From Rhizobium tumorigenes (GTDB lineage Bacteria > Pseudomonadota > Alphaproteobacteria > Rhizobiales > Rhizobiaceae): a stretch of 64,000 nt of DNA. Below, piece by piece: positions 1 through 13,364 of this stretch (positions are counted from its first letter, which is position 1; the number at the start of each line of letters is the position of its first letter). The stretch covers positions 2,232,001-2,296,000 of the forward strand of contig NZ_CP117255.1 in assembly GCF_003240565.2 (NCBI RefSeq), in the 5' to 3' direction. The notes beneath the pieces are model-generated. The model worked only from the letters and a program-made list of their open reading frames with translations, was not told where the DNA came from and made no database searches. A program made the position numbers and the translations under genes.

Positions 1-259
1 GCGGCCAATCGGAGGCGGGATCGACGACGACGGCCTCGAGCTTCTTGCCGAGAAGGCCGCCCTTCTTGTTCTGCTCGTCGATGAGCATCAGCATGGCATC
101 CTTGAGAGTAGTCTCGGAGATGGCCATGGTGCCGGAAAGCGAATGAAGAATGCCGACCTTGATCGTGTCGTCCGCAGCATAGGCGGCGCCGTTGAACAAA
201 GCCGACGTCGACAGGACGGTACCGATAACGGCACCCGTGACGTAGTTCTTGAAATTCAT
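1..259 (-). CDS. urtA: Urea ABC transporter substrate-binding protein, N-terminal part (cut by window edge)
   Basis: The first 86 codons are present and the rest lies outside the window. The start ATG (257-259 on the minus strand) is followed by a signal peptide ([13 protein letters not shown]..., probable cleavage after AAYA) and then the mature start [20 protein letters not shown], which is characteristic of UrtA/FmdD periplasmic binding proteins of the Leu/Ile/Val type. The segment with [20 protein letters not shown] continues the family pattern. The product should bind urea (or a short-chain amide) in the periplasm and deliver it to UrtBCDE, whose genes would be expected beyond the left edge. 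The gene is divergent from the permease-like sensor kinase at 474, which suggests that the kinase controls this transporter; that is inference. Confidence 0.88.
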
Positions 260-473
260 TGTTTTATCCCCTCTTCGAATTCGACAACACTGGCGAAAAC
301 CCGCCGTTAACTGTTGCTTGAGGGACTATGGTTTGGCGCGGGAGAAAACCGTATACGCAATTTGACGTAGGCGGTGGGCGAAACGTGCATCCTTTGCGTC
401 GCGCCGCTTTAAGGCCGGCGATGAACCGTGTTAGCTATCCTCACAGCAAATCGCAGAGGACGTCGACAAAGGC

Positions 474-3400
474 ATGGCCGCACGCCAACGCATCATTCCC
501 GTCAGGCGGGAGTATAATCGCTGGGTCGCCAACCAGACGCTCGAAGACTACGCGCTGCGCTTTACCGCCAAGAGCGCCCGGCAGTTTTCATCGCAGCGCA
601 TTTCGCAGACAGCCATCGGCGCCATCTCGTTCCTGGCGCTGGAGGCAATCGGCGGCGCCATCACGCTGTCATACGGCACCACCAACGCGTTCTATGCGAT
701 CATCGTCGCCAGTCTGGTGATGCTGGGCGTCGGGCTGCCGATCAGTCGCTACGCCATCCGCCACGGCGTCGATATCGACCTCCTGACCCGTGGTGCCAGC
801 TTCGGATACATCGGGTCGACCGTGACCTCGCTGATCTATGCCAGCTTCACCTTCATGCTGTTTGCCATCGAGGCGTCGATCATGTCCGGTGCGCTGGAGC
901 TGACGCTCGGGATACCGCTGTGGATCGGCTATATCATCAGCGCCTGCATGGTCATTCCGCTGGTGACCCACGGGGTCCGCCTGATCAGCCGTTTCCAGCT
1001 GCTCACCCAGCCCTTCTGGATCGTCCTCAATGTCCTGCCCTTCGTGTTCATTGCCTTTTCCGACTGGGAAAAATTCGATATCTGGCGGGCCTTTGCCGGC
1101 CTCGACCGGCCATCCTCTTCCGGCACCCTTGCTCCCTTCAACCTCATCGATTTCGGCGCCGCCTCGGCTGTCATCCTCGCCTTGATCTCGCAGATCGGCG
1201 AGCAGGCCGACTTCCTGCGCTTTCTGCCGCCGGAAGGCCATCGCAAGCTTCGCCACCGGCTGGCGATCTTTCTGGCCGGTCCCGGCTGGGTGATCATCGG
1301 CGCGCCGAAGCTGCTGGCCGGTTCGTTCCTCGTCGTGCTGACGCTGAGCGCCGGCGTTCCGGCCGACCGTGCCGCCGACCCGGCACAGATGTATCTCACA
1401 GCATTTGGCTACATGATCCCCTGGCACAATGCAGCGTTGCTGCTGATGGTCGCCTTCGTGATGGTCTCGCAGCTGAAGATCAACGTCATGAACGCCTATG
1501 CCGGCTCGCTGGCGTGGTCGAATTTCTTCTCGCGCCTGACCCATAGCCATCCCGGCCGCGTCATCTGGCTGGTGTTCAACGTCGCCATCGCGCTGCTACT
1601 GATGGAGCTTGGCATTTACCGGCTGCTGGAAGAGACGCTTGGCATCTTCTCGATCATCTCCATGGCCTGGCTCTGCACGATTTCGGCGGACCTGTTCATC
1701 AACAAGCCGCTCGGCCTCGCCCCAGAAGGCATCGAGTTCAAGCGCGCCCATCTCTACGACATTAACCCAGTCGGCCTTGGCGCCATGACCCTGTCGGCCG
1801 GCATCGCACTGACGGCGCATTTCGGCCTGTTCGGCGCGGTTGCCGCATCTCTTGCGCCCTACATCACCCTGATCGTAGCGCTGGTCGCCTCGCCTGCCAT
1901 CGCCTGGGCCACCAAGGGCAAGTTCTACCTCGCACGCAAGCCGCGTCAGAGCTGGAAGAACCTCACCGATATCACCTGCTCGATCTGCGAGCACCCGTTC
2001 GAGCCGGAGGACATGGCCTGGTGCCCCGCCTATGCGGCGCCGATCTGTTCGCTTTGCTGCTCGCTCGACAGCCGCTGTCACGACATGTGCAAGCCGAACG
2101 CCAATCTCAACGCCCAGATCGGCACCGTCGCCCGCGCCGTGCTGCCGGCGACGGTCATCGCCAAGCTCACCACGAGGCTTGGGCGCTACGGCATCGCGGT
2201 CGTACTGGCGCTCAGCGCCGTCGGCGTCATCCTCGCCCTCATCGCCCACCAGGTATCCTCCGCCTCGCCGGAGACGGCCGAAGTGGTCAACCGCACCATC
2301 CTGATCGTCTTCTTCGTCTTCGCCGTCATCGCTGGCATCGTCTGCTGGTTCTACGTGCTCGCCCATGACAGCCGCGTCGTTGCTGAAGAAGAGTCCTCTC
2401 GGCAGAATACCCTGCTGCTGAAGGAAATCGCCGCCCACAAGAAGACCGACGCTGCGCTGCAGACCGCCAAGGAAACAGCTGAAAGCGCCAACCGCGCCAA
2501 GAGCCGCTATGTCGTCGGCCTCAGCCACGAATTGCGCACCCCGCTCAACGCCGTGCTCGGCTACGCCCAGATCCTCGAGCGCGACGAAACGATACCCGCG
2601 CCGCGCCAATCCTCGATCCGCGTGATACGGCGCAGCGCCGAGCACCTGTCGGGGCTGATCGACGGCCTGCTCGATATTTCGAAAATCGAGGCCGGTCGCC
2701 TGCAGGTCTATTCGAACGAGATCAACATCCGCGATTTCCTCGACCAGATCATCGACATGTTTCGGCCGCAGGCACAGGCAAAAGGCCTCACCTTCATCCA
2801 TGAGCGCGCCGCCTCCCTGCCGGATTACGTCCGCACCGACGAGAAGCGGCTGCGGCAGATCCTCGTCAACCTGCTGTCCAACGCCATAAAGTTCACCGAC
2901 CGGGGAACGGTGCGCTTCGACGTCGGCTATCGTAGCCAGGTGGCCACATTCTCGCTTTCCGACACGGGACGCGGCATCGCCGAGAAGGATCTCGGACGCA
3001 TCTACGAGCCGTTCCAGCGTGGCGAGGCAGAAACCGTCCGGCCGATGCCAGGCCTCGGCCTAGGCCTGACCATCACCCAGCTCCTCACCAACACGCTGGG
3101 CGGCGAAATTTCCGTGACCAGCGAAAAGGATGTCGGATCGACCTTCAAGGTGCGGCTGATGCTGTCCGCCGTGCAGCGGCAGATGAAGCCCGTGCCGCAG
3201 GAGCGAAAGATCGTCGGCTATGACGGCTCGCGGCGGACGATCGTTGTCGTCGATGACAACGAGGATCACCGGGAGATGATGCGCGAGATTTTGGTGCCGC
3301 TCGATTTCGTTGTCCTGACCGCCGTCAGCGGCCCGGATTGCCTGACACTGATCGAAGGCATCAAGCCCGATCTTTTCCTTGTCGACATCTCGATGCCCGG

Positions 3401-3860
3401 CATGAACGGCTGGCAACTGGTGGCAAGGCTGCGCGAAAGCGGACAGGCGGGACCGATCCTTATGCTCTCGGCCAATATAGGCGATGGAACCGCCGGCAGG
3501 GAAAACAGCAGCGGCCACGACGACGCCATCAGCAAGCCGGTCGATATCCGGCAATTGCGCGACCGGCTGGCGCTGCATCTCGGCCTCAAATGGATCTATG
3601 CCGACACCGTTGCAGCCCCTGCCATCAAGGCACCGCTGCCAATGAAGAGCCCCGGCCTCGATCATATCGGAGAGTTGATAAGCCTTGCCGAAATCGGCTA
3701 TATCAGAGGCATTGAGGCAAAGCTTGCAGATCTCGCCAGGCTGCCCGAGAACCAGCCTTTCATCGATGCGCTGCGGGTCTATGTCCAGGCCTTCGATCTG
3801 ACCGGCTTTCTGGCATTCCTGCGTGAATTCGACATCGAAAAGGTAGAACCGATTGGCTGA
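474..3860 (+). CDS. Hybrid sensor histidine kinase with N-terminal NCS1-type permease domain
   Basis: 1128 residues. Residues about 20-480 form roughly 12 hydrophobic segments resembling purine/cytosine permeases of the NCS1 family. Residues 502-539 hold eight cysteines (C502, C505, C517, C525, C528, C529, C535, C539), a zinc-binding-like insert. Two more membrane segments follow (about 565-590 and 605-630), then a short coiled linker, a HisKA domain with H685 in SHELRTPLN, an HATPase domain with N-box NLLSNAIKF and G-box GLGLGL, a receiver domain with phospho-acceptor D971 in LVDISMPGMNGW, and a C-terminal helical tail. The family logic resembles CbrA, where a transporter-like domain feeds a kinase. 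It lies back to back with urtA and overlaps its response regulator by 8 bp, so a role in sensing urea, purines or pyrimidines at the membrane is inferred. Confidence 0.85.
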   Translation: MAARQRIIPVRREYNRWVANQTLEDYALRFTAKSARQFSSQRISQTAIGAISFLALEAIGGAITLSYGTTNAFYAIIVASLVMLGVGLPISRYAIRHGVDIDLLTRGASFGYIGSTVTSLIYASFTFMLFAIEASIMSGALELTLGIPLWIGYIISACMVIPLVTHGVRLISRFQLLTQPFWIVLNVLPFVFIAFSDWEKFDIWRAFAGLDRPSSSGTLAPFNLIDFGAASAVILALISQIGEQADFLRFLPPEGHRKLRHRLAIFLAGPGWVIIGAPKLLAGSFLVVLTLSAGVPADRAADPAQMYLTAFGYMIPWHNAALLLMVAFVMVSQLKINVMNAYAGSLAWSNFFSRLTHSHPGRVIWLVFNVAIALLLMELGIYRLLEETLGIFSIISMAWLCTISADLFINKPLGLAPEGIEFKRAHLYDINPVGLGAMTLSAGIALTAHFGLFGAVAASLAPYITLIVALVASPAIAWATKGKFYLARKPRQSWKNLTDITCSICEHPFEPEDMAWCPAYAAPICSLCCSLDSRCHDMCKPNANLNAQIGTVARAVLPATVIAKLTTRLGRYGIAVVLALSAVGVILALIAHQVSSASPETAEVVNRTILIVFFVFAVIAGIVCWFYVLAHDSRVVAEEESSRQNTLLLKEIAAHKKTDAALQTAKETAESANRAKSRYVVGLSHELRTPLNAVLGYAQILERDETIPAPRQSSIRVIRRSAEHLSGLIDGLLDISKIEAGRLQVYSNEINIRDFLDQIIDMFRPQAQAKGLTFIHERAASLPDYVRTDEKRLRQILVNLLSNAIKFTDRGTVRFDVGYRSQVATFSLSDTGRGIAEKDLGRIYEPFQRGEAETVRPMPGLGLGLTITQLLTNTLGGEISVTSEKDVGSTFKVRLMLSAVQRQMKPVPQERKIVGYDGSRRTIVVVDDNEDHREMMREILVPLDFVVLTAVSGPDCLTLIEGIKPDLFLVDISMPGMNGWQLVARLRESGQAGPILMLSANIGDGTAGRENSSGHDDAISKPVDIRQLRDRLALHLGLKWIYADTVAAPAIKAPLPMKSPGLDHIGELISLAEIGYIRGIEAKLADLARLPENQPFIDALRVYVQAFDLTGFLAFLREFDIEKVEPIG

Positions 3861-4776
3861 ACCCGCCCTGCCACGCGACATCGTTCTGCTCGTGGATGAC
3901 TCGCCGGAAGCCCTCGGATTTCTGACCGACGCCCTCGAACAATCGGGCTTTTCCGTCCTGATCGCCACTTCCGGTCCGGCGGCGCTCGCCATCGTCGAGC
4001 GCATCACGCCCGACCTTATCCTGCTCGATGCCGTGATGCCCGATATGGACGGTTTCGAAACCTGCCGCCGGCTAAAGGCGAATTCCGGCATTTCGCAGGT
4101 GCCGGTGATCTTCATGACGGGGCTGACCGAGACCGAGCACGTCGTCCACGCGCTGGAATCCGGTGGCGTCGATTACCTTACCAAGCCGATCAATATCGAC
4201 GAGCTGCGGGCCCGCATCCGCGTTCATCTGCGCAATGCCCGCTCGGCGCAAAGTGCCAGGGTGGCGCTCGATGCCGCCGGCCGGCACCTGCTCGCCGTCA
4301 GAGGCGATGGCAGCATCCACTGGTCGACGCCGCAGGCAACGCGATTGGTCAATGCCGCCACCGGCAGCGACGATGGCCTTGAGCTTGTCGTGGCTGAAAT
4401 CAGCAGCTTCATGCGAAAAGGCGGGCGCACCCTTCCCACTCGCGACAACGTTCTGTCCATCAGCCCCAACGGCCATGCAGCGCTGCAACTGGCCTTTCTC
4501 GGCACGATTGGTCCCGACGAGCACCTGTTCCGGCTGACCGCTGCACGGCAACATGCCGACGACAGCGTGCTGCGCCAGCATTTTTCCCTCACCCAGCGCG
4601 AATCCGAAGTGCTGCTGTGGATCGCCAAGGGCAAGGCCAACCGCGACATCGGCGAAATCCTCGGCCTTTCCGCCCGCACGGTGAACAAGCATCTGGAGCA
4701 GATCTACGTCAAGCTCGGCGTCGAGAACCGCGCCTCGGCAGCCGTCAAGGCGGCCCATGTGCTGCGCGAGATGTAG
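3853..4776 (+). CDS. Two-component response regulator, receiver plus LuxR-type HTH
   Basis: 307 residues. The start is TTG at 3853, inside the last codons of the kinase (overlap TTGGCTGA), so the two genes are probably translationally coupled. The receiver domain covers about residues 9-125 with the acidic pair D15/D16, phospho-acceptor D59 in LLDAVMPDMDGF and the conserved lysine in YLTKPINID. A middle region (about 130-235) has no domain I recognise. The C-terminus (about 240-307) is a LuxR/FixJ helix-turn-helix beginning FSLTQRESEVLLWIAKG with recognition helix SARTVNKHLEQIYVKLGV. It is the obvious phospho-transfer partner of the permease-kinase upstream and probably acts on the divergent urt promoter; the target is inference. 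Confidence 0.88.
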   Translation: MAEPALPRDIVLLVDDSPEALGFLTDALEQSGFSVLIATSGPAALAIVERITPDLILLDAVMPDMDGFETCRRLKANSGISQVPVIFMTGLTETEHVVHALESGGVDYLTKPINIDELRARIRVHLRNARSAQSARVALDAAGRHLLAVRGDGSIHWSTPQATRLVNAATGSDDGLELVVAEISSFMRKGGRTLPTRDNVLSISPNGHAALQLAFLGTIGPDEHLFRLTAARQHADDSVLRQHFSLTQRESEVLLWIAKGKANRDIGEILGLSARTVNKHLEQIYVKLGVENRASAAVKAAHVLREM

Positions 4777-4885: not shown

Positions 4886-6010
4886 TTACTTCACGTCCTG
4901 CGGGAAGTAGCTGATTTTGCCGTCAGGACCCTTCTTCCATTCGTACATGATGTAGCCTGGGATCTTCGGGTCGCCCTTGGCGTCGAACGAGATGTCGCCG
5001 AGAACGGTCGAGAACGGACCCTTTTCGTGCATGGCCTTGGCAACGGTTTCAGCGTCGACCGAGGCAGCAGCCTTGGCAGCGGCAGCGATCGTCTGAACGG
5101 CAGCATAGGAGTACAGCGTGTATGCTTCAGGGTTGAAGCCGGCAGCCTTGAACTTCGCAACGAGGTCCTTGTTGGCCGGGTTCAGTGTCGGATCGGGACC
5201 GAAGGTGTTCAGCGTGCCGATGACGGCGTCGCCAGCGATCGAAGCCAGTTCGTTCGAAACGATACCGTCGCCCGAAACGAGTGTGGCCTTGACGCCCTGG
5301 TCGGCAGCCTGGCGGATGATCAGGCCAGCTTCCGTGTGCAGCCCACCCCAATAGATGATCGAGACGCCGGCTTCCTTCATCTTGGCGATGAGGGCCGAGA
5401 AGTCCTTGTCGCCGACGTTGATGCCTTCGTACATGACTTCCGTCATACCGGCTGTGTTCAACGCCTTCTTGGTTTCATCGGCGAGACCCTGACCGTATGG
5501 GGTCTTGTCGTGAATGATGGCGATCTTCTTGTCCTTGAAATGGGCAGCAAGATAGGCGCCGGCAACGCCGCCCTGCTGGTCGTCGCGACCGCAGGTACGG
5601 AAGGTGTTCCACAGGCCGCGTTCCGTGAAGGTCGGGTTGGTCGCGGCAGGCGTGATTTCGAGAATTCCGTTTTCAGCATAGACCTCCGATGCCGGGATGG
5701 AAACGCCCGAGTTGAAGTGACCAACGACGTACTTGACGCCATCGGCAACGAACTTGTTGGCAACCGAGATGCCCTGCTTCGGGTCGGAAACGTCGTCGCC
5801 GAGTTCGATCTTGATCTTTTCGCCATTGATGCCGCCGGCAGCATTGATGTCTGCTGCGGCCTGTTCGGCACCCTTCTGGAGCTGTGCACCGAAGGCTGCG
5901 TTCGGACCGGTCAGGGGACCGCCGACGCCAATGATGATATCGGCCCATGCAGTACCGCTGAAAGCGACGAGCGCCGTCAGAGCCACTGCCGAAAGAAGAG
6001 ATTTCTTCAT
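4886..6010 (-). CDS. livK: Branched-chain amino-acid ABC transporter, periplasmic binding protein
   Basis: 374 residues starting at MKKSLLSAV, preceded by GGGAG seven bases upstream; an upstream in-frame start adds twelve residues without family support. A signal peptide ends at GTAWA, and the mature protein starts [20 protein letters not shown], the classic LivJ/LivK opening. The type I periplasmic binding fold continues to the C-terminus ([18 protein letters not shown], then [19 protein letters not shown]). It captures leucine, isoleucine, valine or related amino acids for the LivHMGF transporter encoded just upstream on the same strand. The 118 bp gap to the DUF6867 gene could hold its own promoter, which would fit the usual higher expression of binding proteins. 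A strong terminator follows. Confidence 0.93.
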
Positions 6011-6128
6011 ATTATTACTCCCAATTTTTGGGCGGGGACCGGTCAAGAACCCAACGCATTACCCACCATTGTCCGCGTCGGGGAAGCTGTTCCACTCCAG
6101 GCAATTCATGCCCAGTTTCAACGGGCTG

Positions 6129-6482
6129 TCAATGTTTGTCCTTCCACGAAAACGCGGAAGTCCGTTCGTACAGCCAGTAATAGTTGTTGACCATCTGATT
6201 GGTGCGGCGATAGCGGAAACCGGCCATCGAAACGATCAGAAGGACAACGAAATCGATGCCGAAATACAAGGCGCTGAGCATGGGCCCATCGAAGAGCGCA
6301 TGGTGCAGGAACTGCATCACCCACGCCAGGAGAAACGTATAGGCGATGACCAGGCCGTAGCCATCCCAGTTCTCGGCAACAGCCCTGCCGGCCCGCGACG
6401 CGGTCCACAGGCCGAGCAGCAAGACGAGGCCCCGGATGATCATCCGCACGCCGGTGTCGGGCTCGAAGAAAAGTCCCTGCAT
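6129..6482 (-). CDS. Small membrane protein of the liv operon (DUF6867-like)
   Basis: 117 residues with two or three hydrophobic segments (about 14-30, 45-62, 70-88) and a polar tail rich in aromatic and charged residues (MVNNYYWLYERTSAFSWKDKH). From memory, alphaproteobacterial liv operons carry a protein of this kind annotated DUF6867; I did not verify this. It sits between livF (23 bp upstream) and livK on the same strand. No enzymatic motif is visible. An accessory role at the LivHMGF complex in the inner membrane is inferred from context only. Confidence 0.72.
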   Translation of the reverse strand: MQGLFFEPDTGVRMIIRGLVLLLGLWTASRAGRAVAENWDGYGLVIAYTFLLAWVMQFLHHALFDGPMLSALYFGIDFVVLLIVSMAGFRYRRTNQMVNNYYWLYERTSAFSWKDKH

Positions 6483-6505
6483 ATTAAAGCTCCCCTTCTG
6501 TCGGC

Positions 6506-7234
6506 CTAATGCCGGCCGCCTTCGAGATAGGCCGCACGGACTTCCGGATTGGCAAGCAGTTCCCTGCCGGAACCGCTCATAGTCACCTTGCCGTTGACCA
6601 TCACATAGGCCCGATGCGAAAGCTTCAGGGCTGCGAATGCGTTCTGTTCGACGAGGAAAACCGTCAGGCCTTCCTTCTCGTTCAGCTGTTTGATCGTCTC
6701 GAATATGCCCTTTACGATCAGCGGCGCGAGACCGAGCGACGGTTCGTCCAGCAACAGCAGCTTAGGGCGGGCCATCAGCGCGCGGCCGATCGACAGCATC
6801 TGCTGCTCGCCACCCGACAGTGTCCCGCCGCGCTGCGCATGCCGCTCCTTGAGGCGTGGAAACATCGTGAAAATCTTCTCGACGTCTTCCTTGAAGTATT
6901 TGAGATCGTCCAGGCCCGCGCCCATCTGGAGGTTTTCCATGACGGTCATGCGCGGAAAGATGCGACGACCTTCCGGTGACTGGGCGATGCGCAGCCGGGC
7001 GATCTCGTGCATCGGCAGCTTGGTGATGTCGCGGCCTTCGTAGATGATCGAGCCGGAGCGCGCCTGCGGACTGCCGCAGATGGTCATCATCAGCGTCGAT
7101 TTGCCGGCACCGTTGGCACCGATCAGGCTGACGATTTCGCCGCTGTTGACGTGAACGTCGACGCCGGCGAGCGCGCGGATATTGCCGTAGTAGGTTTCGA
7201 CGTTCTGGACGTGAAGCAAGGGTTGGGTTGTCAT
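6506..7234 (-). CDS. livF: Branched-chain amino-acid ABC transporter ATPase LivF
   Basis: 242 residues, normal LivF length. Walker A is GANGAGKS (residues 39-46), the signature is LSGGEQQML and Walker B is LLLDEPSLGLAP, followed by the H-loop region. Together with LivG it forms the cytoplasmic ATPase pair that powers uptake through LivHM. The start lies 1 bp after the livG stop, which suggests coupled translation. Confidence 0.95.
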   Translation of the reverse strand: MTTQPLLHVQNVETYYGNIRALAGVDVHVNSGEIVSLIGANGAGKSTLMMTICGSPQARSGSIIYEGRDITKLPMHEIARLRIAQSPEGRRIFPRMTVMENLQMGAGLDDLKYFKEDVEKIFTMFPRLKERHAQRGGTLSGGEQQMLSIGRALMARPKLLLLDEPSLGLAPLIVKGIFETIKQLNEKEGLTVFLVEQNAFAALKLSHRAYVMVNGKVTMSGSGRELLANPEVRAAYLEGGRH

Positions 7235-7235
7235 G

Positions 7236-8099
7236 TTACTGGGCGCCCCCTTCGAGGTGCTCGACTTCGGCGATCACGTCTTCCAATTCGTCGTCCTCGA
7301 CGCCGAGATAGGCGGCAATCACCCTCGGGTCGTTCTTGACGTGGTCAGGCGTACCGTCGGAAATCTTCTGGCCATATTCGAGAACGATGACGTGGTCGGA
7401 AATCTCCATCACCACGGACATGTCATGCTCGATCAGCAGGATTGACGTCCCGGTTTCGGCGCGGATGGCGCGCAGCAATGCGTTCAGCACCGCCGATTCC
7501 CGCGGGTTCAGACCGGCGGCAGGTTCATCGAGGCAGAGTAGCTCCGGCTCGGTGCACATGGCACGGGCGATTTCCAGACGACGCTGGGCGCCGTAGGGCA
7601 GATCGCCTGCGGGATCGTCGGCACGTTCGATCAGATCGGCCTTCTCCAGCCAGAAGCGGGCCAGTTCGATGGCCTTCTTGGCTTCCCGGCTGTATCCGCC
7701 GATGCCGAGCAGGCCGAGGATTGTGTAGCCGGAAGCCTTCATCAGCTTGTTGTGTTGCGCCACCAGAAGGTTTTCCAGCACCGTCAGGCCGGAAAACAAC
7801 CTGATATTCTGGAACGTGCGGGCGACCTTGGCTTCGCGGGTGATGCGGAAATCCGGCAGCCGCTCGAGCTGGAAGGTCTTCCCGCTCTTCTGGTTCATGG
7901 TGATCATCCCCATCGTCGGCTTGTAGAAGCCGGTGATGCAGTTGAACACGGTGGTCTTGCCGGCACCGTTAGGGCCGATGAGAGCTGTGATATTGCCGCG
8001 CTTGGCCTCGAAGGAGAAGTCGTTGATGGCCATCAGGCCGCCGAACTTCATCGAAAGGTGCTCGACCTTGAGAAGCGTGTCGCTGGACAGGGTGTTCAT
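7236..8099 (-). CDS. livG: Branched-chain amino-acid ABC transporter ATPase LivG
   Basis: 287 residues. Walker A is GPNGAGKT, the signature is the LivG-typical LPYGAQRRLEIARA rather than LSGGQ, and Walker B is LLCLDEPAAGLNP. The C-terminal extension with a run of acidic residues (GVEDDELEDVIAEVEHLEG) is longer than in E. coli LivG. The ATG overlaps the livM stop (ATGA, 8096-8099), so translation is probably coupled. It partners LivF on the cytoplasmic side of the transporter. Confidence 0.94.
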   Translation of the reverse strand: MNTLSSDTLLKVEHLSMKFGGLMAINDFSFEAKRGNITALIGPNGAGKTTVFNCITGFYKPTMGMITMNQKSGKTFQLERLPDFRITREAKVARTFQNIRLFSGLTVLENLLVAQHNKLMKASGYTILGLLGIGGYSREAKKAIELARFWLEKADLIERADDPAGDLPYGAQRRLEIARAMCTEPELLCLDEPAAGLNPRESAVLNALLRAIRAETGTSILLIEHDMSVVMEISDHVIVLEYGQKISDGTPDHVKNDPRVIAAYLGVEDDELEDVIAEVEHLEGGAQ

Positions 8100-9490
8100 C
8101 AGCCGTGTCCCTCCTTGGTAAAGCTGCCGGAAACTGACTTGCTTTCCTTCAGGAAAGCCGTCGGCGAGCGAGACCCGACAAAACCACGCGGCTTGAAGAG
8201 CATCACGATCACCATGGCCAGCCCGAACAGCAGCATGCGGTAGAGTTCAGGGGTGAAATCGGGGCCGAAGATCGCTTTCAGGAAGTCCAGTTCGCGCAGG
8301 ATTTCCGTGCCGCCGACCATAACGACGGCAGCGATGGCAATCCCGGTCAGCGATCCCATGCCGCCAAGGACGACGATGGCAAGGATGACGGCCGATTCCA
8401 GGAACACGAAGGATTCCGGCGAGACGAAGCCCTGGCGCGCGGCGAAGAAAGATCCGGCGAAGCCACCGAACATCGCACCTGTCGCAAATGCCGTCAGCTT
8501 GGTCGTCACGGTGTTGATACCGAGCGAGCGGCAGGCGATTTCGTCTTCGCGCAGCGCTTCCCAGGCACGGCCGATCGGCATGCGACGCAGGCGTATGGTG
8601 ACATAGGCGGTCAGCATGCAGAGCGCCAGGATCAGGTAGAACAGGAAGATCTTGTAGTAAGCCGACGACATCGGCAGGTCGAACATCTTGGCAAAACCGG
8701 TCGACGTCGCGTCGAACTTGATGCCGAATAGCGTCGCCTTCGGGATACCGGAGATACCGAACGTTCCCTTGGTCACCTCGGTCCAGTTGATCAGCACCAG
8801 GCGAATGATTTCACCGAAGGCAAGCGTCACGATTGCGAGGTAATCGCCACGCAAGCGCAGAACCGGGAAACCCAGGATGACGCCCCACAAGGCGGCGAAG
8901 ATACCCGACAGTGGCAGCAGCAGCCAGAAGGACAGGCCGAAATGGGTCGAGAGCAGAGCGTAGGAGTAGGCCCCGACGGCGTAGAATGCCACGTAGCCAA
9001 GGTCCAGCAGACCGGCAAGGCCGACAACGATGTTGAGACCCCAGGCAAGCATGACGTAGATGAGGATCTGGATGCCGAAGTTGTCGACGTAGAGCAGCGA
9101 GCCCTGCGCGCCCACGAGGCCGACGACGATCATCGGATAGAGGATCATCAGAACGAGGGCAGCCTTGAGAAAGTGCTTTTGAAGAAAGGTCTTTTCCGTC
9201 GATATCGCGAGTTCGCCGGCGCGCGCCTTGCTGAGCTTGCGCTCGTCCAGGTGTGGGCGGAGGAAGACGATAACGGCGAAGCGGCCGACGGCGGCGATGG
9301 CGACGAATATCGCCAGCAAGCCCCAACGCTGGACGATGATCAGCTCGTTGTGGATGTTCTGGTCGGTCTTCAGGCCGATATAGAGAACGAACATGCCGAA
9401 CGAGATGAGGGCAGCAAAAAAGGCTTCGATGAGGCCTCTCCGGATCAGGCCCGAGGAGGTCTTGCCGGTATCGGTGATCGCATTTGCCAT
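8099..9490 (-). CDS. livM: Branched-chain amino-acid ABC transporter permease LivM
   Basis: 463 residues with about ten hydrophobic segments. The first roughly 120 residues, with two membrane spans around residues 20-42 and 50-70 and a charged stretch, are an extension beyond the core LivM domain, which starts near YVDNFGIQILIYVMLAWGLN. The family signature region AWEALREDEIACRSLGINTVTTKLTAFATGAMFGGFAGSFFA is present; it contacts the ATPases through the EAA-like loop. Forms the inner-membrane channel with LivH, whose gene ends 4 bp upstream. Confidence 0.93.
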   Translation of the reverse strand: MANAITDTGKTSSGLIRRGLIEAFFAALISFGMFVLYIGLKTDQNIHNELIIVQRWGLLAIFVAIAAVGRFAVIVFLRPHLDERKLSKARAGELAISTEKTFLQKHFLKAALVLMILYPMIVVGLVGAQGSLLYVDNFGIQILIYVMLAWGLNIVVGLAGLLDLGYVAFYAVGAYSYALLSTHFGLSFWLLLPLSGIFAALWGVILGFPVLRLRGDYLAIVTLAFGEIIRLVLINWTEVTKGTFGISGIPKATLFGIKFDATSTGFAKMFDLPMSSAYYKIFLFYLILALCMLTAYVTIRLRRMPIGRAWEALREDEIACRSLGINTVTTKLTAFATGAMFGGFAGSFFAARQGFVSPESFVFLESAVILAIVVLGGMGSLTGIAIAAVVMVGGTEILRELDFLKAIFGPDFTPELYRMLLFGLAMVIVMLFKPRGFVGSRSPTAFLKESKSVSGSFTKEGHG

Positions 9491-9494
9491 ATTA

Positions 9495-10397
9495 TTAAAC
9501 CTTCTCGACTTCAGGCCGTCCGAGGATACCAGTCGGCTTGAAGATCAGCACGAAGGCCAGGATCGCAAAGGTTGCAACGTCTTTGTATGCGATGGTGAAG
9601 TAGGCAGACCATAGCGACTCGATGAGGCCGATGAGCACCCCACCGAGCACAGCGCCGGGAAGGGAACCGATACCGCCGAGAACCGCCGCGGTGAAAGCCT
9701 TGACACCGGGGGTGAAGCCATCGGTGAACGAGGCCACGCCATAGTACATCAGGTACATGGTGCCGGCGACGGCAGCGAGCGCTGCGCCCATGATAAAGGT
9801 AATCGAAATCGTCTGGTCGACGTTGATGCCGAGCAGCGCCGCCATTTTTCGGTCTTGTTCGGTGGCGCGCTGGGCACGCCCGAGCGCTGTGAACTTGACG
9901 ATGTACCAGAACACAGCCAGCAGCACCGCAGTGATGATCAGGATGATGATCTGCTTCAGCGAGACGGAGATGCCACCAATGGTATAGACGTCACGTACCA
10001 GCGAGGGGATCGGCTTGTTGCGCGGGCCCTGAGCAACCTGGATGAAATTCGACAAAGTAATGGACATGCCGATCGCGGTAATCAGCGGCGCCAGCCGGAA
10101 CGATCCGCGCAGTGGCCTGTATGCGACACGCTCGATCACCCAGTTCCAAAGGCTGACGACCAGCATGGCGACAACCATCATGATCAGCAAAATAACCGCC
10201 ACCGGCAGGCCGATGAAGATGGATGTCAGCACTAGATAGACTATGAGGGCAGCAAACCCGCCGAGCATGAAAACGTCGCCATGGGCAAAATTGATCATGC
10301 CGACAATGCCGTAAACCATCGTATAGCCGATGGCGATGAGGCCATAGATGGACCCAAGAGTCAGCCCGTTAAGGAGCTGCTGGATAAAGTACTCCAT
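9495..10397 (-). CDS. livH: Branched-chain amino-acid ABC transporter permease LivH
   Basis: 300 residues, about eight membrane segments. The N-terminus QQLLNGLTLGSIYGLIAIGYTMVYGIVGMINFAHGDVFMLG and the motif RATEQDRKMAALLGINVDQTI are diagnostic of LivH. It is the first gene of the livH-M-G-F-DUF6867-livK cluster on the minus strand, so the operon promoter should lie in 10398-10660. It pairs with LivM to form the translocation pore. Confidence 0.94.
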   Translation of the reverse strand: MEYFIQQLLNGLTLGSIYGLIAIGYTMVYGIVGMINFAHGDVFMLGGFAALIVYLVLTSIFIGLPVAVILLIMMVVAMLVVSLWNWVIERVAYRPLRGSFRLAPLITAIGMSITLSNFIQVAQGPRNKPIPSLVRDVYTIGGISVSLKQIIILIITAVLLAVFWYIVKFTALGRAQRATEQDRKMAALLGINVDQTISITFIMGAALAAVAGTMYLMYYGVASFTDGFTPGVKAFTAAVLGGIGSLPGAVLGGVLIGLIESLWSAYFTIAYKDVATFAILAFVLIFKPTGILGRPEVEKV

Positions 10398-10704: not shown

Positions 10705-13131
10705 TCAGGAGCGCATGCGGGAGCCGTCAACGTCGAACAGCGGCTCGGCCTGAAGGCTCGCCGGCAGCAGTTCGCCGAGCAATTCGATTGACCAGCCCAC
10801 TGCCTCATCGGCGATTTCCTTGGGAACGTAGCCAAGTGCAACCGAGACACCGGAGCCATGGGCAAACCCGCCCGATGTCACCCAACCCTTCACCTCCCCC
10901 TGGTAATAGATCGGCTCGTCGCCGATGACGTCAGCGTCCTTGGCCGAAAGAATGAAGGTTTTCAGCCGCATAGAGCCGCCCTCCGCCTTTTCCCTGGCCG
11001 CCGCCTGCTTGCCGACGAAATCGGCGCCCTTCGACAGAGCCACGAAGCGACCGAGGCCTGCCTCGTAAGGTCCGTAGAGCGGCCGGTATTCTCGCGACCA
11101 GCTTCCATAGGATTTTTCGAGACGCAGCGCATTGAGGGCGCGAAGTCCGAACAGCCTGATGCCGTATTCTTCTCCGGCCTGCATGATGAGATCGAAAAGA
11201 TAGCTCTGGTACTCCGGCTTCATCCAGAGCTCGAAGCCGAGATCGCCGGTATACGAGACGCGACCGACGATCGCCGGCGCCATTCCGATATCCATCCGTC
11301 GTGTTTGCATGAACGGGAACGCCGCATCGGAAAGATCCTGGTGGGTGAGCTTTTCCAGAAGCTTGCGAGCATTGGGACCGGCAATCGACAATCCGAGCAG
11401 GGAAAGGCCGAGCGCCTTCAGTTCGACGGAGCCATCCTTCGGCAGGTGATCCTCGAACCAGCGCATATGGTAGGATTCGGCAACGCCGGAGCCTATCAGC
11501 AGGAAATCCCCCTCCCCGAGCTTGGCAAGCGTGAAATCGCCGATCAGCTTGCCGTCGTCCTTCAGCATCGGCGCCAGCGTCATGCGGCCGATAGCGGGTA
11601 TGCGGCAGGTGAGCAGCCCGTCTAGCCAGCCTTCGGCACCCGCTCCAGTGACCGTATACTTGGCAAATCCCGAGGTCTCCATCAGGCCGACGCTTTCGCG
11701 CACCGCCTTGGCCTCGGCGCCGACCACGTCGAAATCGTTGGAGCGGCGCCAGGAAAAAGCGTCCTCCTCGCCTGCAGGCGCAAACCACAGTGCCTGTTCA
11801 AGTCCATAGTAAGCACCGAACACGCCGCCGGCAGCTTTCAGCTTGTCGTAGATCGGCGTCGTCAGCAGCGGCCGGCCGGCGGGCAACTCTTCGTTCGGAT
11901 AGCGGATCGAGAAGCGGCGTTGGTAGTTTTCGCGCACCTTGGCATTGGTATAGGCAAGCGTCGCGTAATCGCCGTAGCGAGAGACATCCATGGCAAAGAC
12001 ATCAAAACCCGGATCGCCGTAGATCATCCAGTTGGCAAGCGCCAGACCGACGCCGCCCCCTTGGCTGAAGCCGGCCATCACGGCGCAGGCCGACCAGTAG
12101 TTGGTCATGCCGCGCACCGGACCGACCAGCGGATTGCCATCCGGCGAGAAGGTGAAGGGACCGTTGATGATCTTCTTGATGCCGGCATTGTTGAAGGCCG
12201 GGAAATGCCGGAAGCCGACTTCAAGCTCGGGCGTGATCCGCTCGATGTCCTCGGCCAGCAGCTCATGGCCGAAATCCCAGGGCGTATTCAGCGGCGACCA
12301 CGGCCGACAGGCTTTTTCATAAGTGCCCATCAGCATCCCCTGCCGCTCCTGGCGGAGATAGATCTCGCCATCGAAATCGACGCAGTGCATCAGCTCCTTG
12401 CCGGTCGCGGCATTGAAGTCGGTGACTTCCTTCATGTCCTCGGTAATGAGGTACATGTGCTCCATGGCGAGAACCGGCAGCTCGATGCCAACCATGCGCC
12501 CGACTTCACGAGCCCAGAGGCCACCGCAATTGACGACATGCTCGGCGATGATCTCGCCCTGGTTTGTAATCACTCGCCAGCAGCCGTCCTCGCGCTGAAC
12601 GAGATCTTCCACCTTGGTGTGCAGGTAGATGTCAGCCCCATTTTTCTTGGCCGATTTGGCATAGGCATGCGTCGTGCCGTAGGGGTCCAGATGACCTTCG
12701 ACCGGATCGTAGAGCGCACCGACGAACTGGTCGGGGTCGAGAAGCGGCATCATCTCGTGCGCCTCTTTCGGCGACAGCAATGTCGCCTCGAGCCCGTTGT
12801 AGCGACCCTTGGCAAGGATGGACTTCAGCCAGTCGAACCGCTGCGGCGTTGCCGCCAGCATCAGGCCGGAGGTCATATGCAGGCCGATGTCCTGGCCGGA
12901 ATACTCCTGGATTTCCTTGTAGAGTTCGACCGTGTATTTCTGCAACTTGGCGACATTCGGATCACCGTTGATCGTGTGCATGCCGCCGGCCGCATGCCAG
13001 GTCGAGCCGGATGTCAGCTCCGAGCGCTCCAGCAGAACCACGTCGGTCCAGCCGAATTTCGTCAGATGGTAGAGGACCGAACATCCGACGACACCGCCGC
13101 CGATGACGACGACCTTCGTATGGCTTTTCAT
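10705..13131 (-). CDS. FAD-dependent dimethylglycine/sarcosine dehydrogenase-like protein with GcvT domain
   Basis: 808 residues starting at MKSHTKVVVIGGG; GGAG sits eight bases upstream and the longer frame has no family support. The N-terminal DAO-type FAD domain has the dinucleotide motif GGGVVGCS (residues 9-16) and the segment SGSTWHAAGG, whose histidine corresponds to the covalent FAD attachment site in dimethylglycine dehydrogenases. The C-terminal half (about 430-808) is an aminomethyltransferase/GcvT-type folate-binding module. The expected reaction is oxidative N-demethylation of a methylated glycine, passing the methyl as formaldehyde or methylene-tetrahydrofolate. It lies 233 bp after soxG on the same strand, so it could join the sarcosine pathway, but it may have its own promoter. 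The exact substrate is not determined by sequence. Confidence 0.82.
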   Translation of the reverse strand: MKSHTKVVVIGGGVVGCSVLYHLTKFGWTDVVLLERSELTSGSTWHAAGGMHTINGDPNVAKLQKYTVELYKEIQEYSGQDIGLHMTSGLMLAATPQRFDWLKSILAKGRYNGLEATLLSPKEAHEMMPLLDPDQFVGALYDPVEGHLDPYGTTHAYAKSAKKNGADIYLHTKVEDLVQREDGCWRVITNQGEIIAEHVVNCGGLWAREVGRMVGIELPVLAMEHMYLITEDMKEVTDFNAATGKELMHCVDFDGEIYLRQERQGMLMGTYEKACRPWSPLNTPWDFGHELLAEDIERITPELEVGFRHFPAFNNAGIKKIINGPFTFSPDGNPLVGPVRGMTNYWSACAVMAGFSQGGGVGLALANWMIYGDPGFDVFAMDVSRYGDYATLAYTNAKVRENYQRRFSIRYPNEELPAGRPLLTTPIYDKLKAAGGVFGAYYGLEQALWFAPAGEEDAFSWRRSNDFDVVGAEAKAVRESVGLMETSGFAKYTVTGAGAEGWLDGLLTCRIPAIGRMTLAPMLKDDGKLIGDFTLAKLGEGDFLLIGSGVAESYHMRWFEDHLPKDGSVELKALGLSLLGLSIAGPNARKLLEKLTHQDLSDAAFPFMQTRRMDIGMAPAIVGRVSYTGDLGFELWMKPEYQSYLFDLIMQAGEEYGIRLFGLRALNALRLEKSYGSWSREYRPLYGPYEAGLGRFVALSKGADFVGKQAAAREKAEGGSMRLKTFILSAKDADVIGDEPIYYQGEVKGWVTSGGFAHGSGVSVALGYVPKEIADEAVGWSIELLGELLPASLQAEPLFDVDGSRMRS

Positions 13132-13364
13132 GGATAATCTCCGGTTGCATGCGCCTGCGGGTAGCGCAATCGAAACAGTCTGGAATGGGTTGGCGTTCGA
13201 TGCCGGGGAAAGGGTGTTCGGCAAGGCAATCCCCGCCGAAAAACTCCCTTCGATCCGTCGAATTGACGATCAGCCTAGAGGCAAAATTTCAGGCCACATA
13301 GCCCGAACTGCGAAGCAGATACTTCCATTTGCGACATGCAGATTGTCCTCATCGCGCCATGATC

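Follow-up and report, generated by a model that had tools for sequence, protein, structure and literature searches.

Near the start of a 64,000-nucleotide stretch of the Rhizobium tumorigenes genome (contig NZ_CP117255.1, positions 2,232,001 to 2,296,000 of the forward strand; hereafter the window, to which plain coordinates refer, with L-numbers denoting fetched loci and G-numbers genomes) lies the gene for a hybrid sensor histidine kinase whose input half has the predicted fold of an NCS1 permease, followed by a partner response regulator and placed divergently from urtA of the urea transporter operon urtABCDE. Domain architecture, predicted fold and conserved gene pairing define a real and widespread class of transporter-derived sensor kinase that is, as far as searched, undescribed. 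We think it fairly probable that the kinase is an NCS1-class receptor for urea or short amides, and that its regulator binds an inverted repeat in front of urtA and activates urt. The features of the region are as follows.

1..259, minus strand: urtA, 5' part (first 86 codons); the rest of the gene lies outside the window start (locus L005)
354..369, no strand assigned: putative operator TACGCAATTTGACGTA, inverted repeat TACG-N8-CGTA in the urtA promoter region (repeat scans)
474..3860, plus strand: hybrid sensor histidine kinase, 1128 aa, with permease-fold input half (open reading frame, Pfam, AlphaFold2 model)
591..1913, plus strand: predicted NCS1-fold (LeuT-type) domain, residues ~40-480 (AlphaFold2 model, CodB/Mhp1 matches, L192 permease bridge)
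1971..2096, plus strand: linker module, residues ~500-541, with eight invariant Cys (conservation, 147 sequences)
2190..2351, plus strand: two extra hydrophobic helices, residues ~573-591 and ~608-626 (hydropathy, model helices)
2499..2696, plus strand: HisKA, residues 676-741, phospho-acceptor His685 (Pfam)
2835..3164, plus strand: HATPase_c, residues 788-897 (Pfam)
3240..3569, plus strand: kinase receiver domain (REC), residues 923-1032, Asp971 (Pfam)
3853..4776, plus strand: response regulator, REC plus LuxR-type (GerE) DNA-binding domain (Pfam)

The window edge splits urtA, leaving 86 of its 431 codons inside, and an earlier note on this DNA had named the gene from those 259 bases only. 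The name was correct: the gene starting at 259 on the minus strand scores 553.9 bits against TIGR03407 (cut-off 492.75), and urtB, C, D and E downstream of it also exceed their NCBIfam cut-offs (TIGR03407/3409/3408/3411/3410 set, locus L005), bearing out the note's description of a kinase-regulator pair divergent from urtA. On the same strand, beyond urtBCDE and outside the window, lies ureC (UreC, L005:8093-9790). The regulator gene overlaps the kinase gene by 8 bp. Plain Pfam matches give the kinase domain order HisKA-HATPase-REC, and with both phospho-acceptors in place (His685 kept in 147 of 147 sequences, Asp971 in 145, with a gap in the other 2) the protein is a hybrid two-component kinase.

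A survey of kinase-urt linkage had been set beforehand as the refuting test of the proposal, and it found the linkage to be conserved. Among the named loci (the best 80 of 551 confirmed, a choice biased to near relatives), a divergent UrtA gene was found within the fetched 10 kb in 78, at a distance of ≤700 bp in 40 of these, and the regulator stood behind the kinase in all 80; the two loci without UrtA were L082 and L068, the latter on a contig that stops 770 bp upstream of the kinase. In the order sample, UrtA was matched at E 1e-60 in 29/30 kinase genomes versus 69/120 without the kinase, and coordinates placed it divergent and ≤4 kb from the kinase in 28/30. In the class sample, UrtA exceeded the cut-off in 12/12 kinase genomes compared with 41/190 overall, adjoining the kinase in 9 of the 12. 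The phylum sample yielded kinase matches at E 1e-10 in 56 of 398 genomes, four of which (G349, G367, G408 and G551) gave weak or fragment matches only.

More distant kinases mostly face an urt-like operon with a formamidase gene, or sit near urease. A second set of 64 loci was drawn from the class and phylum samples, leaving out the fragment G408 and G167 (of the same genus as G039, its kinase adjoining UrtA by coordinates); stand-alone permeases or weak matches (L192-L195) were not counted. A divergent UrtA-like gene was present in 48 of the 64, at ≥60% identity in 9 and at ~40% in 39, and 37 of these 39 also carried a formamidase gene (family NF045496), a system that we take to be of the FmdDEF type. 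Two loci (L185 and L186) had the formamidase gene without the UrtA-like gene, nine further loci (L169, L173, L174, L177, L179, L187, L188, L189 and L190) had the urease gene ureC and no divergent urtA, and L150 and L191 were truncated at contig ends. A quick tree was built from 86 of the 147 sequences (midpoint-rooted for drawing only, and with open forks); on it the urt-type label needs 4 changes versus 25.0 in shuffles, so the partner operon has switched more than once.

The earlier note had read the input half as an NCS1-type permease and proposed a search for PF02133 and HisKA in one chain. The NCS1 call was right, although the search itself failed: residues 1-640 gave no Pfam match even at E 10, a search for PF02133 in the whole genome of this strain at E 0.001 found nothing, and the permease half returned only spurious matches when compared with the PDB by sequence alone. 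Its NCS1 identity rests instead on an AlphaFold2 model (predicted local distance difference test [pLDDT] 85.3, predicted template modeling score [pTM] 0.85), for which NCS1 proteins fill the first four places among solved structures, and on a stand-alone permease (L192) that shares 27% identity over 486 columns with the sensor half and matches PF02133 at 36.4 bits. The permease half therefore has both the NCS1/LeuT fold, as modeled, and sequence homology to the family, does not reach the Pfam cut-off for PF02133, and is best described on this evidence as a diverged NCS1-fold domain rather than a PF02133 member by that cut-off. Neither SSF (SLC5) nor STAC domains were among the Pfam matches of the kinase, and the proposed separation from CbrA holds, the input being of NCS1 fold, not SLC5-type, and tied to urea genes. 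The stand-alone permease gene (L192:4881-6374) has a distant UrtA-like binding-protein gene ~1.8 kb further on.

Between the permease half and the kinase core, eight Cys (502, 505, 517, 525, 528, 529, 535 and 539) are each kept in 147/147 sequences, and the pair of hydrophobic helices lies between this module and the core. Comparison with RING/PHD/FYVE/C1-like folds gave weak matches, none significant; the module is possibly a cross-brace zinc finger. Such invariance would also suit a kinase in which the permease half is mainly an anchor or flux gauge and the input is metal, redox or intracellular nitrogen, read through the cysteine module or the kinase core. The Sinorhizobium meliloti orthologue lends this alternative some further support, its gene being under PhaR, a carbon-storage regulator. 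We identify the orthologue as SMb20609 because the PhaR site (pSymB 1622073) lies 95 bp upstream of the orthologue start, in agreement with PMC12542648; that paper calls the kinase functionally uncharacterised, reports that PhaR binds its promoter, and groups UreA and UreB with the kinase in one regulatory module. Nevertheless, conservation across the permease half is strong (mean column identity of 59% in alignment A1, 17 sequences, with many invariant positions), and since a mere anchor would need no such conservation, we regard this alternative as unlikely.

Pocket residues were mapped through a MAFFT alignment with CodB and counted over 147 sequences, so the statements that follow are inferences by alignment only. 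CodB Trp108 aligns with residue 129 (the position on transmembrane helix 3) and Phe204 with residue 238, or with 237 after a shift of one position. At residue 129, 86/86 near urt-type kinases have Leu and 39/39 of the urt-like type have Phe; the 4 distant urt-type kinases have Phe in three cases and Leu in one, and among 18 others Phe occurs in 14 and Leu in 4. Trp is never found there, and no aromatic occurs at 237 or 238 (the position on transmembrane helix 6) in any of the 147. By this alignment, the two aromatics that sandwich the substrate in NCS1 transporters, described as conserved across NCS1 in PMC9379551, are not retained in the kinase family. On helix 8, residue 339 is Met in 86/86 near urt-type and Thr in 39/39 urt-like-type sequences (Ala in 3 and Thr in 1 of the 4 distant urt-type), and residues 129 and 339 are among the five of 470 columns that split the two large groups at a score rounding to 1.0. 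The hydroxyl positions of the Na2 site align with Lys335-Ile336 or with Val338-Met339, depending on gap placement in helix 8, where all 39 urt-like-type kinases carry Thr339.

Loss of both pocket aromatics, as aligned, fits a small, non-aromatic ligand. The partner operons encode urt, urt-like (plus formamidase) or urease systems, and the nucleobase aromatics are not kept, which narrows the list of candidates to urea or short-chain amides. Of the urea, purine or pyrimidine nitrogen suggested originally, urea is retained and short amides are added, and purine or pyrimidine ligands are disfavoured. A sensor of nucleobase, hydantoin or allantoin that induces urea uptake as a downstream part of purine and pyrimidine nitrogen use would accord with the nearest solved folds, whose substrates are cytosine and hydantoin, and with a kinase copy on an Azospirillum plasmid that lacks urt and has xanthine dehydrogenase-family genes next door; set against the lost aromatics and the identity of the partner operons, we find it quite improbable.

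The predicted DNA site is a 16-bp inverted repeat, TACGN8CGTA, at 354-369, with the fuller form TACGTC-N4-GACGTA, ~100 bp upstream of urtA; no consensus sigma-70 promoter was found in 200-520. The exact repeat occurs in 45/46 urt-type and 30/38 urt-like intergenic regions of ≤700 bp (means of 0.04 and 0.06, respectively, in dinucleotide shuffles), and its center lies 97 to 104 bp upstream of the UrtA match start in 29/45 urt-type regions. The counts of 45/46 and 30/38 are, by themselves, partly circular, the pattern having been picked from about a dozen intergenic sequences, and for that reason the repeat was tested on other loci. Among 66 loci with urtA >700 bp from the kinase or absent, 49 have UrtA; of these 49, 45 carry the repeat in front of UrtA and 3 carry it in front of the kinase, leaving auto-regulation of the kinase through the repeat unsupported. 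Where urtA adjoins the kinase, the repeat was found in 20/24 rows, equal to 19/23 distinct genes, including 18/21 of the genes not used before. Where urtA is elsewhere in a kinase-bearing genome, it was found in 2/20, both from one genus and with unusual cores (two of these 20 genes, L217 and L289, are ~9 kb from the kinase). None of 76 sampled kinase-less genomes carried it upstream of urtA (one stretch, L281, measured 583 bp, and G637 was entered twice). A recheck gave 0/46 by UrtA position for true urtA by identity, and 0/30 in fetched stretches; one of the 46 loci, L202, contains the pattern at another place within its 4 kb. The repeat goes with urtA and occurs together with the kinase-regulator pair. 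Its ownership by another nitrogen regulator, with the kinase pair controlling something else, would account for its following urtA rather than the kinase, the link being by co-occurrence only, but is very unlikely given 0/76 urtA promoters without the kinase and 2/20 non-adjacent ones with it.

Several points weigh against the reading of a urea-sensing pair acting through this repeat. Many of the surveyed loci are closely related, so the counts are not independent, and three (L103, L104 and L108) have no urt, formamidase or urease gene in ~10 kb on each side. The kinase-less control covers true urtA for the 46 loci identified by identity. No repeat was found at urtA in kinase loci L106, L165, L168 and L172; it is missing from 8/38 urt-like regions and 4/23 linked urtA genes, from within 400 bp of the kinase in urease-linked loci (L188, L190 and seven others), and from 24 kb around the plasmid kinase copies of Azospirillum (L320) and Thioclava (L321). 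A 17-base form, ATACGYN6RCGTA, matches 40/61 family genomes, with counts like or below those of a reversed control. In the R. tumorigenes genome (G000) this form has 2 matches versus 3 and 6 for the control, and TACGYN6RCGTA occurs at 2 places, whereas its reversed pattern has 32 on each strand, a difference that may reflect avoidance or base composition; the second site, C1:3058439, has no clear promoter context. Genome-wide rarity was dropped as evidence, and with the 17-base form so common across family genomes it is the position of the repeat, not its presence, that carries the operator argument.

For the urea- or amide-sensing pair we infer the following course, with each step modeled on the relay logic of the SLC5/STAC kinases CrbS/R and RpuS/R and of Ks-Amt5. 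An NCS1-class transporter fold would have taken on the receptor role in a hybrid histidine kinase. Kinases of the urt-linked branch would most likely bind urea, and those of the formamidase-linked branch formamide or a comparable short amide. Ligand in the old substrate pocket would shift the fold between its states, and the shift would be relayed through the eight-Cys module (probably zinc-binding) and the two-helix membrane hairpin to the dimerization and histidine phosphotransfer (DHp) helix. His685 would then be phosphorylated and the phosphate passed via Asp971 to the partner regulator, which would bind TACGTC-N4-GACGTA ~100 bp upstream of urtA and activate urtABCDE. A bolder version, in which a non-transporting NCS1-fold receptor for urea or formamide, with an undescribed eight-Cys zinc coupler, one conserved operator and an almost single-operon regulon, has passed among formamidase, urt and urease operons and travels on conjugative plasmids, we hold tentatively and with somewhat less than even confidence.

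Among known systems, the SLC5/STAC kinases (CbrA, CrbS and RpuS) likewise fuse a LeuT-fold transporter to a HisKA/HATPase histidine kinase. They differ in having an SLC5 input and a STAC coupler, where the kinase described here has an NCS1-fold input, an eight-Cys module and two helices, and in that the predicted target here is urea or formamide uptake. The input half of Ks-Amt5 has the Amt fold. In Ks-Amt5, too, a nutrient transporter has been recruited to provide the input to a histidine kinase, the signal there being ammonium (PMC5764959). CrbR belongs to the LuxR family, as does the regulator here, and induction of acetate genes by CrbS/R and of the neighbouring mctP operon by RpuS/R requires promoter repeats (PMC5715377 and PMC9100948). 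The NCS1 transporters CodB and Mhp1 differ from the kinase, which is fused, has no Pfam match over the permease half and does not keep the stacking aromatics in the alignment. UrtABCDE and the formamidase-linked urt-like system are neighbour operons and proposed targets rather than sensors. Neither NCS1 nor purine occurs in the main text of the CbrA preprint (PMC13022988), the accessible part of PMC11109136 has nothing on NCS1, and a search of the open literature by title and abstract start found no description of an NCS1-type kinase, an urt-controlling kinase or such a urea-sensing two-component system.

Further copies and variants of the kinase were seen. A Klebsiella conjugative plasmid (L319:4463-13935) carries the kinase divergent from an urt-like operon with formamidase, with one repeat copy in 24 kb, and Klebsiella accounts for 338/506 plasmid records matching the cysteine module (one inspected). 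Variant kinases of 885 to 894 aa near a formamidase gene (L185:6254-8911 and L186:6275-8959) have no receiver of their own (by Pfam, for the L186 copy); in L186 a separate receiver-plus-kinase gene follows. Loci L074 and L075 are matching copies on one metagenome contig, either a duplication or an assembly error. In the window, the operon on the far side of the kinase pair (4886-10397) encodes a Liv-type system for branched-chain amino acids and was ruled out as the urt genes meant by the earlier note, the true urt lying beyond the window start. Between its binding protein and LivF is a small DUF6867 protein, and a Liv-type operon with this gene also stands behind the regulator in many named Rhizobiaceae loci. 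At 10705-13224, a GcvT-like folate domain is fused to an FAD oxidoreductase.

The kinase-regulator pair is a widespread candidate for a urea-sensing two-component system, for which a ligand class, a DNA site and a target are predicted. If the proposal is true, another LeuT-fold lineage has turned receptor beside SLC5, and the pair would help to show how a transport cycle becomes a signal.
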